In this document: piece by piece, positions 53,866 to 58,929 of the stretch
Layout: each line of letters starts with the position of its first letter
Numbering within the stretch: position 1 is the first letter of the stretch
NCBI RefSeq assembly: GCF_014192335.1
Contig: NZ_JACHXU010000001.1
Location: 600,802-664,801 of the forward strand
Origin: Aporhodopirellula rubra
Lineage (GTDB): Bacteria > Planctomycetota > Planctomycetia > Pirellulales > Pirellulaceae
DNA: 64,000 nt
Direction: 5' to 3'
The notes under the pieces: model-generated
Seen by the model: the letters and a program-made list of their open reading frames with translations, nothing else
What the model was told of the DNA's origin: nothing
Database searches by the model: none
Made by a program: the position numbers and the translations under genes

Positions 53866-54202
53866 GAAGTAATGACGCTGGCAAAGGAGGCGGAATTCAC
53901 AACGACGCGAAGATAGCAAATCCCGCCGACGGAAGGAACGTCGCTCAAAAGTTGAGATGACGGCAGAGTTCCGTGAAAGTTGCCCAGGCGGGAGTGGCCG
54001 AGCCGAATGCGTTCGAAAAACGACTTTCTGACAGACGATAGCGATCGGCAAACCACCAACCTGTGCGTTTTTCGGCCACTGAATCGCGTTTGATCTCCTT
54101 CTAGCGATTCTTTTCGGGCTTGGCACGCCGAATGCAACCTCCATGTTGCCGGCTCAAAACGCCGTAGCCAAAACCGCACACTCGATAATGAAGGAGATAC
54201 CG
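53866..54202. other. 337-bp divergent regulatory region
   Basis: Separates the ketosynthase-like gene from the CsbD-type operon. It contains the sigma-54 promoter listed next and, 45-100 bp further upstream, a 9-bp inverted pair (CGAAAAACG at 54014-54022 and CGTTTTTCG at 54066-54074) that could serve as an activator-binding site. No coding frame is supported. Confidence 0.5.
54121..54136 (+). promoter_or_regulatory. sigma-54 (RpoN) -24/-12 promoter
   Basis: TGGCACG followed by CCGA and ATGCA. The invariant GG (54122-54123) and GC (54134-54135) are separated by exactly 10 bases, as required for RpoN promoters; only the first T of the TTGC element differs. Transcription should begin near 54147, leaving a leader of about 55 bases before the operon's first ATG, which has an AAGGAG site. 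An RpoN-type activator is encoded 2.2 kb downstream. Confidence 0.7.
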
Positions 54203-54634
54203 ATGACGAACCGTGAAGAAATCAAAGGCCATTGGAACGAAGTCAAAGGCCGCCTGAAGGAACATTGGGGACAACTCACCGACGACGACTTGAGCCAAGC
54301 CGAATGCAATGCCGAGCAGTTGGTCGGCGTCGTCCAGCAAAAGACCGGTGCGACCCGGCGAGAAATCGAAAACTTCATCGACGGGCTCTACAACGGCTCG
54401 GTTAGCGATCAGGCTGCCGAAACGGTGCAGCATTACGCCGATGCGGCTCACCGTTTGGCGGACGACGCGTCGCGATACGCTCGCGTGCAAGCCGACCGGA
54501 TCGCAGCCTGCTCGTCGGATTACTCTCAACGCGTCGCTCACACCGTTCGCACTCGCCCGGCCGAATCGATGGCAATCGCCTTCGGCTTGGGGATCGCAGC
54601 GGGAGCGTTGTTCTTCCTCGGTCGGAAGAAATAG
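54203..54634 (+). CDS. CsbD-like protein with ElaB/YqjD-type C-terminal anchor
   Basis: 143 residues in two parts. The N-terminal 60 residues match CsbD stress proteins ([33 protein letters not shown]). The C-terminal 80 residues are a helix followed by [20 protein letters not shown] and a short basic end, the Gly-zipper tail anchor of the ElaB/YqjD/YgaM family, proteins that tie ribosomes to the membrane in stationary phase in E. coli. An AAGGAG site sits six bases ahead of the ATG. First gene of a five-gene unit behind a sigma-54 promoter. The ribosome-tether role is inference from the family. Confidence 0.85.
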
Positions 54635-54636
54635 TC

Positions 54637-55047
54637 ATGGCTGTCACGAACGCAACGCGTCGGCAGTCCGAAGCAATTCGCGCCTCCATGCGTGAGATAC
54701 GCAGCGAACTGCCGTATGACGTTGACGATGCCCGCGAACGTGTGAAGCAATTGTCGGATTGGAAGTACCACATGTCGCGCCGGCCCGTTGCAGTAATGGC
54801 CGCCGCGGCAGTGGTCGGTTACCTGTTGGTACCCGCGAAGCGATCGTCATCGACGGTGATTCATCATCAACAGGCCGAAGCGTCTGCTCCACCTGCGAAG
54901 CGGAGCGTCTTCGGAGGAATCGCCGGAGCCGTCGCGACATTGCTGATTCGGCAAGCGGCGACAATGACCGCGAATCAAATTGCGAGCAAGTTCTCTGCAG
55001 GTCACGCCGTCCAACCATCGCTTTCTCGCCAAGAGGTTCATTCATGA
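54637..55047 (+). CDS. small membrane protein, DUF3618/DUF883-like
   Basis: 136 residues. An N-terminal Arg/Glu-rich helix (RRQSEAIRASMREIRSELPY, then DDARERVKQLSDWKYHMSRR) precedes a membrane helix (PVAVMAAAAVVGYLLVPAK) and a second amphipathic or membrane segment (GGIAGAVATLLIRQAATM). The helix-then-anchor layout resembles DUF3618/DUF883 proteins. It starts two bases after the previous stop, and its TGA overlaps the ATG of the next gene. Confidence 0.75.
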   Translation: MAVTNATRRQSEAIRASMREIRSELPYDVDDARERVKQLSDWKYHMSRRPVAVMAAAAVVGYLLVPAKRSSSTVIHHQQAEASAPPAKRSVFGGIAGAVATLLIRQAATMTANQIASKFSAGHAVQPSLSRQEVHS

Positions 55048-55229
55048 TCGCGCCAATCAAAGAACGACCGTATCCCGCACGTCAACACGCCATCGCGCTC
55101 GAAGAAGACGAACAACGCCCGGTACGGGTGCTGAGCCAGTTGATTGAAAAACAGCCTGCCGCTGCACTGACTGTGGCCCTGGCCTTCGGGCTGACCGTCG
55201 GTTGGCTCGTCAAACGTAAGAATTGGTAA
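55044..55229 (+). CDS. 61-residue tail-anchored small protein
   Basis: ATG overlaps the previous stop (ATGA). The charged N-terminus (EEDEQRPVRVLSQLIEK) is followed by one helix, QPAAALTVALAFGLTVGWLV, and a basic KRKNW end. The anchor resembles that of the CsbD-like first gene. Small size and tight coupling explain why it is easily overlooked. Confidence 0.75.
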   Translation: MIAPIKERPYPARQHAIALEEDEQRPVRVLSQLIEKQPAAALTVALAFGLTVGWLVKRKNW

Positions 55230-55233
55230 TCCG

Positions 55234-55758
55234 ATGCAAGAACAAACTTCCCGCCTGCCATCCAGTTTCCAGCGAGTCGCACGTGATGTCTGCGATCTCT
55301 TTGAATTGCAGATGCAGTTGATTTCGGTGGATTCCCAAGAGGCGAAGCGAAAGCTGACTCGATCGATCGTTTGCGGTTCGATTGCCGCGGTTCTCGCTGG
55401 TTCTGCCTTGACGGTATTGATGATCGCTTTGGGTCTGCTCCTCGGCGAGCTCACTGCGTTATCGACCGGTGCCGCGATGTTGATGGTTTGCCTTGCAGTG
55501 TTTGTCGTGGTCGCCGTGCTCGGCTGGATCGCATTGAAGGCAGTTACCGGTGCCGCAGACGCCATGGCAGAGACCAAGTCCGAGTTTGCCGAAAACTTGC
55601 GTTGGCTCAAAGCCACATTACTTGCCCCTGAATCATCGCCGCGGAACCAATTCCGCCGTGAGTCCTTCAGCGATCCGAACGCGACGTCTCGTCATGTTCA
55701 ACAGGAGTCGCACTATTCAGATCACTTTCTTGACCGTAGTTCCCTCTCACCCAGGTAA
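55234..55758 (+). CDS. YqjE/holin-X-like membrane protein
   Basis: 174 residues. An N-terminal amphipathic helix (FQRVARDVCDLFELQMQLIS) is followed by two membrane helices (SIAAVLAGSALTVLMIALGL and GAAMLMVCLAVFVVVAVLGW), then a helical cytoplasmic tail. This is the layout of the phage-holin-superfamily-III/YqjE (DUF1469) group, which accompanies YqjD in enterobacterial yqj operons. Starts four bases after the previous stop. Confidence 0.8.
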   Translation: MQEQTSRLPSSFQRVARDVCDLFELQMQLISVDSQEAKRKLTRSIVCGSIAAVLAGSALTVLMIALGLLLGELTALSTGAAMLMVCLAVFVVVAVLGWIALKAVTGAADAMAETKSEFAENLRWLKATLLAPESSPRNQFRRESFSDPNATSRHVQQESHYSDHFLDRSSLSPR

Positions 55759-55764
55759 ATAATC

Positions 55765-56010
55765 ATGTCTCAATCGATCAATCCAACCACGCCGCATGCC
55801 GAAACTGTGTCGGATCAAGCCCGCGAGACGGCGAGCCGCGCGGCCGCCCACGCCAGTGAAGTCGCGCAGGACGCAGCCCGCCACTTTGTCCGCGAACCTG
55901 CCCAAGATCTGTTCAGTTTGGCGAAGCAGTACGCACGCGAGAATCCAGACGTCGCCGCTTGCTGGGCATTCGGACTCGGCGTTGTGGTTGGATGGAAACT
56001 GAAACCGTAG
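55765..56010 (+). CDS. 81-residue membrane protein with YqjD-like anchor
   Basis: Ala/Glu-rich helix (DQARETASRAAAHASEVAQD, as in late-embryogenesis or apolipoprotein-like amphipathic helices) followed by ARENPDVAACWAFGLGVVVG and a short basic end. The RENP-hydrophobic-Gly pattern is that of the YqjD/ElaB tail anchor. Last gene of the unit, six bases after the previous one; a terminator lies about 160 bp downstream. Confidence 0.78.
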   Translation: MSQSINPTTPHAETVSDQARETASRAAAHASEVAQDAARHFVREPAQDLFSLAKQYARENPDVAACWAFGLGVVVGWKLKP

Positions 56011-56171
56011 TCTCGTTGGACGGGGGGCACGAACGTTTTGTCGAGTTCGAGCCCGAGCTCGGCGCATCCATAAGTACTCGCAGCCTGTCTTCAAAAAGGT
56101 TTCCGACGTGGCGAAAGTCGTTTCGCGTCACCTGAACATTTTATTGTTGACAAAGCAGTTGACAAAACAAC

Positions 56172-56206
56172 AGCGGTCGGAACTTACGAACTCCGATCGC
56201 TTTCTT
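56172..56206 (+). terminator. probable terminator of the CsbD-type operon
   Basis: AGCGGTCGGA pairs with TCCGATCGCT (one G-U) around a 10-base loop, followed by TTCTTC. The T-run is imperfect. Just upstream, GTTGACAAA occurs twice (56146-56154 and 56158-56166). Confidence 0.6.
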
Positions 56207-56395
56207 CATCTGACTCGATAATGCCACCGCAGTCATCGCAGGGCCGAGTGCGGTTGCCTGAAGTCGGTCGACATTCAATTGACTCATCGCGTAAACTCGC
56301 TAGGTACTACTATCATGTCCGCTGGAATTGCTTTTCCGCAGAGTCTGCCTTCAAAGGTGGACAAAACACAGCCACAATCCTCTTGGTGCAAGACC

Positions 56396-57856
56396 ATGCC
56401 GAGTTTGCTAGTCATTGACGACGACCGCCTTATTCTCACGTTGGCGCAGAAATCGCTCGCCTCGATAGCCGATGTCGAGACCGCTTCGTCTGCCTCCGAG
56501 GGAATCGAAAAATTGAAGGCAGGCGATTTCGACGCTGTCCTGCTTGATATCCAATTGCCCGATCAGAACGGGCTCGCCGTTTTCTGTGAGATTCGTGAGC
56601 ACGATCGCCGAATCCCCGTCATCTTCATGACCATCGAAGCGGCCAGTAATACCGCGATCGAAGCGATGCAGTTGGGAGCGTTCGACTACATTGCCAAACC
56701 GCTCGCCGTTGATCCGCTGCGTGATCTCGTTGAGAAGGCGATCGAACAGCGACAAATCAGCAGCGTGCCGGTCGCGATCTCGGCTGACGATGAGTCAGCG
56801 GATACCGGCGGTGAGCTGTTCATCGGTCGCTCACCGGCGATGCTCGATGTTTTCAAAGCAATCGGAAAGGTCGCCAAACAAGACGTGCCGATCCTCGTTC
56901 GCGGTGAGAGTGGAACGGGGAAGGAACTCGTCGCCCGTGCCTTGTACCAATACAGCAGACGAGGCGAAGAAACATTCTTGGCCGTCAACTGTGCCGCATT
57001 GCCCGACAATCTGCTCGAGAGTGAATTGTTCGGTCACGAAAAAGGGGCGTTCACGGGCGCTGAATCGCGTCGCATCGGTAAGTTCGAACAGTGCAACGGG
57101 GGAACTCTGTTCCTTGACGAAATCGGGGATATGGCGTCCACGGTTCAAGCCAAAGTGCTCCGTGTGTTGCAGGACCAGCGTTTCGAGCGGGTAGGCGGCA
57201 ACAAAGAGCTGAAGACCGACGTTCGAATCATTGCCGCCACCAACCGGCCACTCGAACAGATGGTCGACGATGGCGAGTACCGAGAGGATCTGCTCTACCG
57301 ACTCAATGGTGTGACGATCGAGTTGCCGCCACTTCGTGATCGACTCAGTGATGTGCCAGCATTGATTCGGTTTTTCCTCAGTGGCGCGAAACGAGAATTT
57401 AACAAACCGGACTTGGAAGGCCTTTCGCCCGAAGCGGTCGAGTTGTTGTCCGCATACGACTGGCCCGGAAATGTCCGGCAACTGCGAGCCGTGATCCGTC
57501 GCTGTGTGCTCGATACCGTGATGCCGGTAATCACACCGGACGGATTGCCACGAGAGGTTACCGGACACAAGGGAACGACAGTGGCAACGGGCGCGAGCGT
57601 GGATGCCGCCTCACCGGGGGCCGGTCTGCCTAAGCTGGTCCGTGAACTGCTAACGAACGGTTCCACCAACGTTTACGCGGAGGCAACTGAATACATGGAA
57701 CGGTACGTGATTACCGAGGTGCTGCGTGAAACGAACGGCAACCAAAGTCAAGCAGCCGAGATTTTAGGAATCACGCGAGGCAAACTTCGTGATCGGATCA
57801 ACTCATTCAACATCGTCTTGAAGAACGACGTCGAAGTAGGAGCAGCGGCAGGATGA
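56396..57856 (+). CDS. NtrC-type sigma-54-dependent response regulator
   Basis: 486 residues: receiver domain ([19 protein letters not shown], phosphorylation Asp51 in [11 protein letters not shown], and the conserved Lys in DYIAKPL), AAA+ domain (Walker A GESGTGKE at 170-177, the sigma-54 contact motif GAFTGA at 217-222, and [12 protein letters not shown]), and a C-terminal Fis-type helix-turn-helix ([20 protein letters not shown]). It should activate RpoN promoters when phosphorylated. ATG 56396 starts directly at the receiver fold; ATG 56315 would add 27 residues. No histidine kinase gene is adjacent. The last codons overlap the HPt gene. Confidence 0.93.
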
Positions 57857-58221
57857 ATGCGAAATCAGATATGTCAAAACTTTCGAGTGAGCAGCGGCAA
57901 CGTTTCGCCAGTGCGATTGAGCGGGTGGGCGATGATGAAGACATCTTGATCGTACTCGCCGAAATGGCGTCCGAGGATGCTCCCGTATTGATGAAGAAAC
58001 TTGAAGGAGAAATCTCCAACGGGTTCTTCGACGCCACCGCGCAGACTGCTCACGCGTTGAAGGGCTTGCTCAGCACTTTCGAAACCGGCGAACCGGTTGA
58101 AGGGCTGCAGTCGCTCATTGATTCGGCACGTCAAGGCGATGAGAAAGAGACGACACAACTTTTCAATACCTTGAAGCCGGAACTACTCAAACTTGTTGAT
58201 TTAGTGAGTCAACTTCCCTGA
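57853..58221 (+). CDS. HPt (histidine phosphotransfer) domain protein
   Basis: 122 residues of helical sequence with TAHALKGLLSTF (candidate His67), matching the AHxLKG phosphotransfer motif of free-standing HPt proteins. Its ATG overlaps the activator's stop (ATGA), so the two are translationally coupled. The likely role is to pass phosphate to or from the activator's Asp51; the kinase at the start of that relay is not in the window. A terminator follows. Confidence 0.82.
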   Translation: MNAKSDMSKLSSEQRQRFASAIERVGDDEDILIVLAEMASEDAPVLMKKLEGEISNGFFDATAQTAHALKGLLSTFETGEPVEGLQSLIDSARQGDEKETTQLFNTLKPELLKLVDLVSQLP

Positions 58222-58249
58222 CTCAGCTCTATCGAATGAGACAAGTCAC

Positions 58250-58282
58250 GCTCGGCGGCGTAAGTGGCCGGGCTATTTTTTT
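58250..58282 (+). terminator. intrinsic terminator of the activator-HPt operon
   Basis: GCTCGGC pairs with GCCGGGC (one G-U) around a 10-base loop, then TA and seven Ts, about 30 bp after the HPt stop. Confidence 0.82.
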
Positions 58283-58423: not shown

Positions 58424-58765
58424 CTACGTCATCGTCCGTGGCGACATCGCTTGGTCGGTATCACCAGGTGCTTTGTCTTCGTAACGCGACGCACGTTCGT
58501 AAAGCGATTGCACTTCGCCGACCACTCCGTCGATCGCCGCACCACGATGAATTGCCGGTTCGGGGCATTCGGTTCGGATACGATCTTTCAAAATGTTCGA
58601 TAAAGGCGGTTGCCCTTCGGAATGACGCGACCAACCGTTTGTCGAGAGGTTAGCCGTCAATTGTTCGGCCCGCTCGTGGTTGAACTCACCGCCGTTCTTG
58701 ATCGCGTCGCAGCAGAGTTCGGTGAGGTGTTGAAGAGTGGTTTCGATTTCGGCGTTGGGCGACAT
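58424..58765 (-). CDS. small hypothetical protein
   Basis: 113 residues with an AGGAG site seven bases before the ATG, which supports a real start. The N-terminal half is helical (AEIETTLQHLTELCCDAIKN, then NHERAEQLTANL); the C-terminal half is Arg/Glu-rich and probably flexible. No membrane helix, signal or known motif is visible. It converges with the HPt operon and lies downstream of ftsK on the same strand with a 164-bp gap. Confidence 0.6.
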   Translation of the reverse strand: MSPNAEIETTLQHLTELCCDAIKNGGEFNHERAEQLTANLSTNGWSRHSEGQPPLSNILKDRIRTECPEPAIHRGAAIDGVVGEVQSLYERASRYEDKAPGDTDQAMSPRTMT

Positions 58766-58929
58766 GAGGTGCTCCTGAGAGTTCGGTAAAACGGACTTCT
58801 GAAGCAGACCTAGGTTGCAAACGCCGCGCCAAGTTTGAACGCGGGACTACCGGTCGTTGACGACACGAGCGAGGTTAATGTGAACTCACCGAGTGTCGAT
58901 TGTTTGCATCTTATCGACGAACGAGTTGC

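Follow-up and report, generated by a model that had tools for sequence, protein, structure and literature searches.

The yqjD-yqjE, elaB, and ygaM genes of Escherichia coli are stationary-phase genes. ElaB is under OxyR and RpoS control (PMC6389858), and ElaB and YqjD are both treated in PMC5525287. In Pseudomonas aeruginosa, the PA3040-3042 operon is reported to be induced by envelope stress and in stationary phase (PMC11302039). Here we describe a locus of the planctomycete Aporhodopirellula rubra (GCF_014192335.1, 8.5 Mb in 75 contigs) that lies in a window of 64,000 nucleotides (C1:600802-664801; handles beginning with G, C, and L denote genomes, contigs, and loci of our set). Five small genes (g1 to g5, g1 being the csbD gene) are followed by genes for an NtrC-type response regulator of the sigma-54 enhancer-binding protein (EBP) family (g6) and an Hpt-like protein (g7) (Table 1). 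Sequence comparison makes it likely that the five genes form a stress operon that depends on sigma-54 and has an activator dedicated to it. The best reading is a sigma-54, NtrC-type version of an operon type that in Proteobacteria serves envelope or general stress under RpoS or AlgU.

The original prediction placed a near-consensus RpoN promoter ahead of five packed small genes, and the box, its spacing, and the gene gaps were verified. The box TGGCACGCCGAATGC has one mismatch to TGGCAC-N5-TTGC, and the intergenic gaps from g1 to g5 are 2, -4, 4, and 6 bp. AAGGAG precedes the ATG of g1 at 54203, which lies 56 nt 3' of the predicted start at about 54147. The genome has one sigma-54 gene (Sigma54_AID, 62.4 bits). 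The box alone is no proof, being unenriched: matches with at most two mismatches numbered 48 in the window versus a shuffled mean of 63, and strict boxes numbered 45 genome-wide versus 39 for the reversed pattern. The box was therefore rejected as sole evidence. We take it to be real because it is conserved across csbD upstream regions, where it was scored out of 10 for GG-N10-GC at -55 to -160. A box of at least 8/10 was found in 29 of a first set of 38 full-length csbD homologue upstreams including the window (shuffles mean 0.96, maximum 5); related species are counted separately here and in the site statistics below, so that the shuffle figures overstate independence. In a set of 75 distinct upstreams of genes encoding CsbD with the C-terminal tail (the first set plus 47 named loci, minus ten duplicates), 48 had a box of at least 8 (shuffles mean 1.72, maximum 5) and 30 a box of at least 9 (mean 0.22, maximum 2). 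Comparison open reading frames (ORFs) of at least 250 codons at 57 of the loci gave 42/394 and 21/394 at these thresholds, and some of the boxed ones are themselves likely sigma-54 genes. In homologous loci, the flanks drift while the box is kept. Related genomes with the operon but lacking both the box and a nearby activator had been named as evidence against the prediction. A box was found no further than 210 bp away in all 18 close upstreams (g1 identity of at least 56%, two being second copies), and in 17 it lies within -55 to -160.

Alignment of five close upstreams revealed a conserved patch that reads TGGTCG-N5-CGACCA, a 17-bp palindrome whose 6-5-6 form resembles other NtrC-type sites. 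The window has two candidate sites of this kind at -79/-59 from the box, with a joint score of 18/24 that was equalled by 2/5000 shuffles anywhere and 0/5000 at -79 to -81. A tandem score of at least 17/24 was found in 15 of the 18 close upstreams, and their summed score was 301 versus 224 for shuffles (standard deviation [sd] 4.8, maximum 241). The best of spacings 8 to 44 was 20 bp, and the single-site motif scored 173 versus 152 at best among 59 other arrangements of the same arm letters. The pair lies at about -80/-60 from the box in 8 close upstreams, starts at -175 to -180 in 6 of Rhodopirellula baltica type, and is found at -90/-92 in the 2 second copies. Five of the 18 had served in motif discovery. 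In a held-out set of 43 upstreams outside motif discovery, all with a box, the tandem sum was 667 versus 535 (sd 7.2, maximum 554), and at the fixed -80 offset 422 versus 354 (sd 10.6, maximum 388). The held-out loci of K23_9 (L182), Rubripirellula obstinata (L188), and L192 have the pair at -79/-80, and single sites matching at 12/12 precede the csbD-locus boxes of L051, L058, and L060, from other genera or families, where the partner sites are weak (5 to 7). The predicted RpoN control of the operon is strengthened by the conserved box and tandem enhancer sites, and regulation, as judged from comparison of the sequences, is strongly supported.

An NtrC-type activator with GAFTGA, an HPt gene, and a further terminator had been read 3' of the operon terminator; the activator, an Hpt-like gene, and a terminator-like hairpin were found. 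g6 scores above the Pfam cut-offs for Response_reg, Sigma54_activat, and HTH_8 (91.1, 237.3, and 40.9 bits) and contains GAFTGA. It falls below the cut-offs for NtrC (NR(I)) itself (NCBIfam equivalog TIGR01818, 466 bits versus 558.6), PspF (equivalog TIGR02974, 301.7 versus 443.55), and ZraR (343 versus 760). The recognition segment ITRGKLRDR occurs in 16/16 close EBP orthologue rows, with I as the next residue in 15 and V in one, and among 18 more distant rows it is ITRGSLRNKI in 8, with variants in the others. For the predicted free-standing HPt protein, g7 scores 21.3, below the Hpt (PF01627) cut-off of 24.6, but an Hpt match at an E value of ≤0.1 was obtained for 10/10 aligned members (g7 itself plus 9 of 16 extracted homologues, best 1.3e-11), and H-x-L-K-G is present in 16/16 homologues. 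The csbD-linked EBP of one distant genome (L057:11989-13491) carries GSFTGA in place of GAFTGA.

Among the 18 close loci, the EBP is encoded at the same locus as the operon in 12 and the Hpt protein in 14. The EBP gene stands directly after the operon, about 3 kb after it, or tail to tail with it. An activator near the operon in relatives, as predicted, was thus found in most close loci, but G001, G010, G018, and G025 encode the EBP elsewhere in the genome. Linkage was also seen in K23_9, Stieleria sedimenti, and Roseiconus, and in three of 14 further, distant genomes (csbD with tail at E ≤1e-15), G050, G054, and G055, where the best-scored EBP hit is ≤10 kb from csbD. At identities of at least 56% for csbD and 70% for the EBP, cut-offs chosen after the lists were seen, the two co-occur in the same 16 of 60 genomes. 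The EBP is tied to the tandem site because the promoter of the EBP gene itself carries the same tandem, at a score of at least 17, in 8 of the 20 distinct upstreams compared (shuffles 7/4000). All eight come from other genomes: the R. baltica-type loci L040 to L042, L044, L045, and L189 (R. europaea 6C), together with L186 (Stieleria sedimenti) and L187 (Rhodopirellula sp. JC639). In L040 to L042, L044, L045, L186, and L187, the tandem begins 12 bp after the start of the promoter's own box. This suggests autorepression of the EBP, because the sites overlap the -12 element and the start. Linkage, co-occurrence, and these shared sites together support the pairing of the operon with the adjacent EBP and Hpt genes. 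In G025, the EBP frame (G025:C2:403890-405374) is interrupted by a single in-frame TAG, and the csbD operon (L035), 40 kb away, has no tandem site and a box shifted to -208; the circuit may be decaying there, or the sequence may contain an error.

Opening of sigma-54 polymerase by an AAA+ domain through GAFTGA is the established mechanism of the EBP family. In the working that we propose, a sensor kinase encoded outside the locus, probably a hybrid, would pass phosphate to H67 of the Hpt protein and from there to D78 of the NtrC-type regulator, with membrane stress as the possible signal. The regulator would bind the two TGGTCG-N5-CGACCA-type palindromes, which are defined by conservation, lie 20 bp apart on one DNA face, and have their centres at about -97 and -77 relative to the predicted start. 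Its AAA+ ring would then open sigma-54 RNA polymerase via GAFTGA at the conserved -24/-12 box. Five small proteins would result: CsbD with a membrane tail, a protein with one transmembrane segment, two minute proteins anchored by their tails, and a protein of YqjE/holin-X type. Under osmotic or general stress, they probably coat the cytoplasmic membrane or stabilise it. In some relatives, the same regulator may read sites at MscS genes, DUF2383 stress genes, and its own promoter, where sites overlapping -12 to +1 probably repress the EBP gene.

Table 1. Features of the operon, its predicted promoter, and the adjoining genes (window positions)
Feature	Position	Strand	Description
Candidate enhancer site 1, CGATCGGCAAACCACCA	54042..54058	+	9/12 to TGGTCG-N5-CGACCA
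Candidate enhancer site 2, TGTGCGTTTTTCGGCCA	54062..54078	+	9/12; exactly 20 bp from site 1
Sigma-54 -24/-12 box, TGGCACGCCGAATGC	54121..54135	+	GG 54122-3, GC 54134-5, spacing 10
g1	54203..54634	+	143 aa; CsbD domain (6-56), helical linker, glycine-rich C-terminal hydrophobic tail
g2	54637..55047	+	136 aa; single hydrophobic segment (about 50-68); no family above cut-off
g3	55044..55229	+	61-aa C-tail-anchored protein; C-terminal end GLTVGWLVKRKNW
g4	55234..55758	+	174 aa; Phage_holin_3_6 (holin-X / YqjE-like) membrane protein
g5	55765..56010	+	81 aa; C-terminal tail GLGVVVGWKLKP; hydrophobicity marginal (19-residue mean 1.22)
Hairpin, g5-g6 gap	56172..56201	+	-15.4 kcal/mol, z -4.25, T tract weak
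g6 (EBP)	56315..57856	+	NtrC-type response regulator: REC with D78, AAA+ with GAFTGA, Fis-type helix-turn-helix (HTH); 4-bp overlap with g7
g7	57853..58221	+	Free-standing Hpt-like protein; H67-x-L-K-G
Terminator after g7	58250..58282	+	Hairpin 58250-58273 (z -2.76), then T7 at 58276-58282
n8	58424..58765	-	113 aa, conserved, without family match; convergent with g7
Sigma-54-like box of n8, TGGCGCGGCGTTTGC	58817..58831	-	At -66 of n8

The CsbD-like and YqjE-like members of the operon were confirmed, with g1 (CsbD, PF05532, 63.7 bits versus a cut-off of 40) and g4 (Phage_holin_3_6, PF07332, YqjE / holin-X superfamily, 56.1 versus 28.4) above the Pfam cut-offs and a CsbD match in 20/20 g1 homologues. 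A hydrophobic stretch is present in all five proteins, though marginal in g5. Full-length matches to CsbD with the tail, sought among the best 80 of 428 related stretches, were confined to planctomycete records and a single metagenome-assembled genome (MAG; L199) of an unclassified bacterium; other phyla align only within the first ~60 to 90 residues. In named genomes, the best csbD matches are to Rhodopirellula sallentina SM41 (89%) and Aporhodopirellula aestuarii (80%). These relatives were gathered with one seed pattern and are not exhaustive. A structure prediction for g1 was all helical and too weak for use (mean predicted local distance difference test score 58, predicted template modelling score 0.33).

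The operon had been read as encoding at least three proteins with the glycine-zipper tail anchor of YqjD/ElaB, likened to E. coli proteins that tether ribosomes in stationary phase. g1, g3, and g5 do end in a glycine-containing hydrophobic segment followed by a short, mostly basic tail, but all three fall below the cut-off of 27 bits for the glycine-zipper tail DUF883_C (PF19029; g1 15.2, g5 13.8, g3 no hit). A match to DUF883_C at E ≤0.1 was seen in 9/20 g1 homologues. The shared tail is therefore a sub-threshold resemblance only. The DUF883 N-terminal domain (PF05957) was matched neither in the five proteins nor in the genome at E ≤0.001, while the E. coli control was positive, which leaves the tether idea without its defining domain. 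g3 and g5 are scarcely more than tail and offer scant cytosolic part. Even with a YqjE-like operon partner, as described for PA3040-3042 (PMC11302039), a ribosome tether is thus quite unlikely and the claim was not supported. We favour proteins that would protect the membrane under osmotic or general stress, because of the analogy with PA3040-3042 and the company of MscS and DUF2383.

Two other explanations concern the regulation. It is unlikely that the operon is sigma-54 dependent but driven by a different EBP with a similar Fis-type HTH, the adjacent EBP having another main target. EBP-like frames are numerous in the genome (110 first-look candidates, 25 scored), including a 75% identical paralogue on C21, distant csbD genes show boxes without tandem sites, and the window's own EBP gene lacks the sites; against these stand the linkage of EBP and operon, their presence in the same genomes, and the recurrence of the tandem at EBP promoters. 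That the box is a chance match, with an ordinary or extracytoplasmic function (ECF) sigma factor running the operon and the EBP serving nitrogen or other metabolism, is very improbable. A box kept at similar distance in so many upstreams, with paired sites at set offsets, argues against chance, and the score of g6 under the NtrC equivalog cut-off argues against a nitrogen role. The unenriched strict boxes would fit a chance match, as would the response of R. baltica ECF sigma factors to stress reported in PMC2754498.

Several observations weigh against a sigma-54 operon served by the adjacent EBP, besides the overstated independence of the shuffle figures. The window sites are degenerate (9 + 9 of 24). 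No box of at least 8 was found in the tested range of 27 of the 75 csbD upstreams, including Stieleria-type L183, L184, and L186. Two of the 18 close upstreams have a box but no tandem (L035, score 11; L049, score 10), and a third is weak (L038, 14). Of the 20 EBP upstreams, 12 lack a tandem of at least 17, including the window's own (score 12), and other ORF upstreams reached this score in 19/434 cases, some of them true members. In the other 11 of the 14 distant genomes, the best-scored EBP hit is elsewhere in eight, and three have no EBP hit at the 1e-140 cut-off. Many distant csbD genes have a box but no recognisable sites, so other activators must serve them. Among loci named Isosphaeraceae, Singulisphaera, or Aquisphaera (n = 9), the box lies at -75 to -85 in four (L198, L203, L208, and L209), at -212 in one, and is absent from four. 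The CsbD+tail genes of those four boxed loci and of the unplaced Planctomycetota MAGs L205, L206, and L213 have a box at -75 to -96 and no recognisable tandem palindromes, and a different activator probably serves them. MscS genes beside the operon in R. baltica-type loci (L041 to L045) have neither box nor tandem, and site-plus-box patterns in 13 genomes barely exceed the reversed control (17 versus 10; 5 versus 4). Finally, R. baltica rpoN is reported to be down-regulated in high salt (PMC2754498).

Stress data for R. baltica bear on paralogues of the operon. Locus L067 of G003 has three neighbouring ORFs on the plus strand, with 117, 99, and 158 codons, the first a 30% n8 homologue and the third a 23% g1 paralogue, which match RB10956, RB10957, and RB10958 in length, order, and strand. 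These three genes are listed among those induced by heat, cold, and salt (PMC2754498). No box of at least 7 was found within 300 bp of this operon; the data therefore speak for a stress response of paralogues, and not for sigma-54 as its cause. Microarray support for the operon itself was dropped, as the orthologous operon could not be mapped to RB numbers. The same microarray study found no regulation of rpoH-, rpoE-, or rpoN-type genes in heat shock and pointed to a different cascade (PMC2754498).

Other candidate targets were sought from boxes and sites. A tandem of at least 17 precedes 2 of the 45 strict boxes of the genome, both at csbD operons (the window and C21:116493). The second operon copy is L032 (G000:C21:108000-124000). 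The C21 paralogue of the EBP (L132, G000:C21:70000-89500) follows an MscS gene whose promoter has the box TGGTACGCAACCTGC and a tandem of 11 + 8 at -80, and this unit is divergent from a CHASE3-PAS-HisKA-HATPase-REC hybrid kinase. The unit lies 40 kb from the second csbD operon copy and forms, with the kinase, a candidate full relay. With the kinase as query (38 rows, those above 33% identity examined), no close relative was found beside the window's operon; the kinase is next door to the C21 paralogue only. The MscS-EBP promoter and the next three were picked up with looser boxes in stretches taken from this genome. A gene for a 110-codon small membrane protein (L259:2529-2935 on the minus strand; G000:C21, about 70028-70434) has the box TGGCACACGCCGTGC in its promoter (C21:70421) and a tandem of 9 + 9 at -80, and a further hit at L132:16940 has a tandem of 17. 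The DUF2383 gene on C7 has a tandem of 16, and its near relative in G008 one of 21 at -79/-59. Among 11 distinct DUF2383 homologue upstreams, 9 have a box of at least 8 (one at -319) and 2 a tandem of at least 17. Of 12 MscS homologue rows (at least 60% identity), 6 have a box of at least 8, 5 of these with a tandem of at least 16. In L183, L184, and L186, MscS and csbD are divergent and share a site. n8 has a box of at least 8 at -64 to -79 in the window and the two closest genomes (3/3) and no tandem site; it is probably a further sigma-54 gene.

A wide regulon drawn from site-plus-box patterns was rejected, the counts being near the reversed control. The only hits that looked real were the csbD operons of G007 and G005, the DUF2383 gene on C7, and, also in G005, a gene identified by eye as YeaQ/YmgE-like; because these are few, we do not claim a large regulon. 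Strict boxes before GroES-like and DnaK-like frames (L102 and L135, named by eye) have no tandem sites and were left out as targets; they suggest a second sigma-54 stress branch. We put forward as a tentative possibility that a general or envelope stress regulon of the Pirellulaceae (the CsbD+tail operon, MscS, DUF2383, and probably n8) is run by sigma-54 and one phosphorelay-driven NtrC-type activator that reads 20-bp-spaced tandem palindromes and represses itself in several genomes, as a stand-in for RpoS, SigB, or AlgU. If true, the stand-in rests on an unrelated transcription mechanism: a stress-gene set that is elsewhere under RpoS, SigB, or AlgU would here be placed under a sigma factor that needs an ATP-driven activator. 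The planctomycete general stress response is poorly known, and the locus offers a defined candidate activator, a candidate DNA site, and a short target list.

The locus shares with E. coli yqjD-yqjE, elaB, and ygaM small C-tail-anchored proteins with glycine-rich tails and a presumed stress role, and a YqjE-type protein adjoins in the yqj case as it does here. The E. coli yqjD/elaB genes have RpoS/OxyR control and the DUF883 N-terminal domain, whereas this operon appears to use sigma-54, has no DUF883 match, and has CsbD fused to the tail. The phage-shock (PspF) and ZraR systems likewise place envelope-stress genes under sigma-54 and a dedicated EBP. PspF lacks a receiver domain and is restrained by PspA; g6 differs from both activators in falling below their cut-offs, being paired with an Hpt-like protein, and having other predicted targets. 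A sigma-54 regulon prediction was reportedly made for Pirellula sp. strain 1 by Studholme and Dixon in 2004 and may list this EBP; the wiring proposed here was not found described in the literature searched by title and abstract start. PA3040-3042 is described as a tight operon of YqjD-like, YqjE-like, and hypothetical proteins, with three genes, AlgU control, and DUF883 in PA3040, compared with five genes with CsbD and predicted sigma-54 control here (PMC11302039). Regulon predictions for Planctomycetia place EBPs under sigma-54 and report MscS, chaperone, and UspA genes as enriched among the predicted targets; the main text of that paper does not mention CsbD, DUF883, holin, or Rhodopirellula (0 occurrences), and no enhancer-site assignment was noted in it (PMC12316311). 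The parts are already known; new here are the tandem palindromes and their proposed wiring to the operon.

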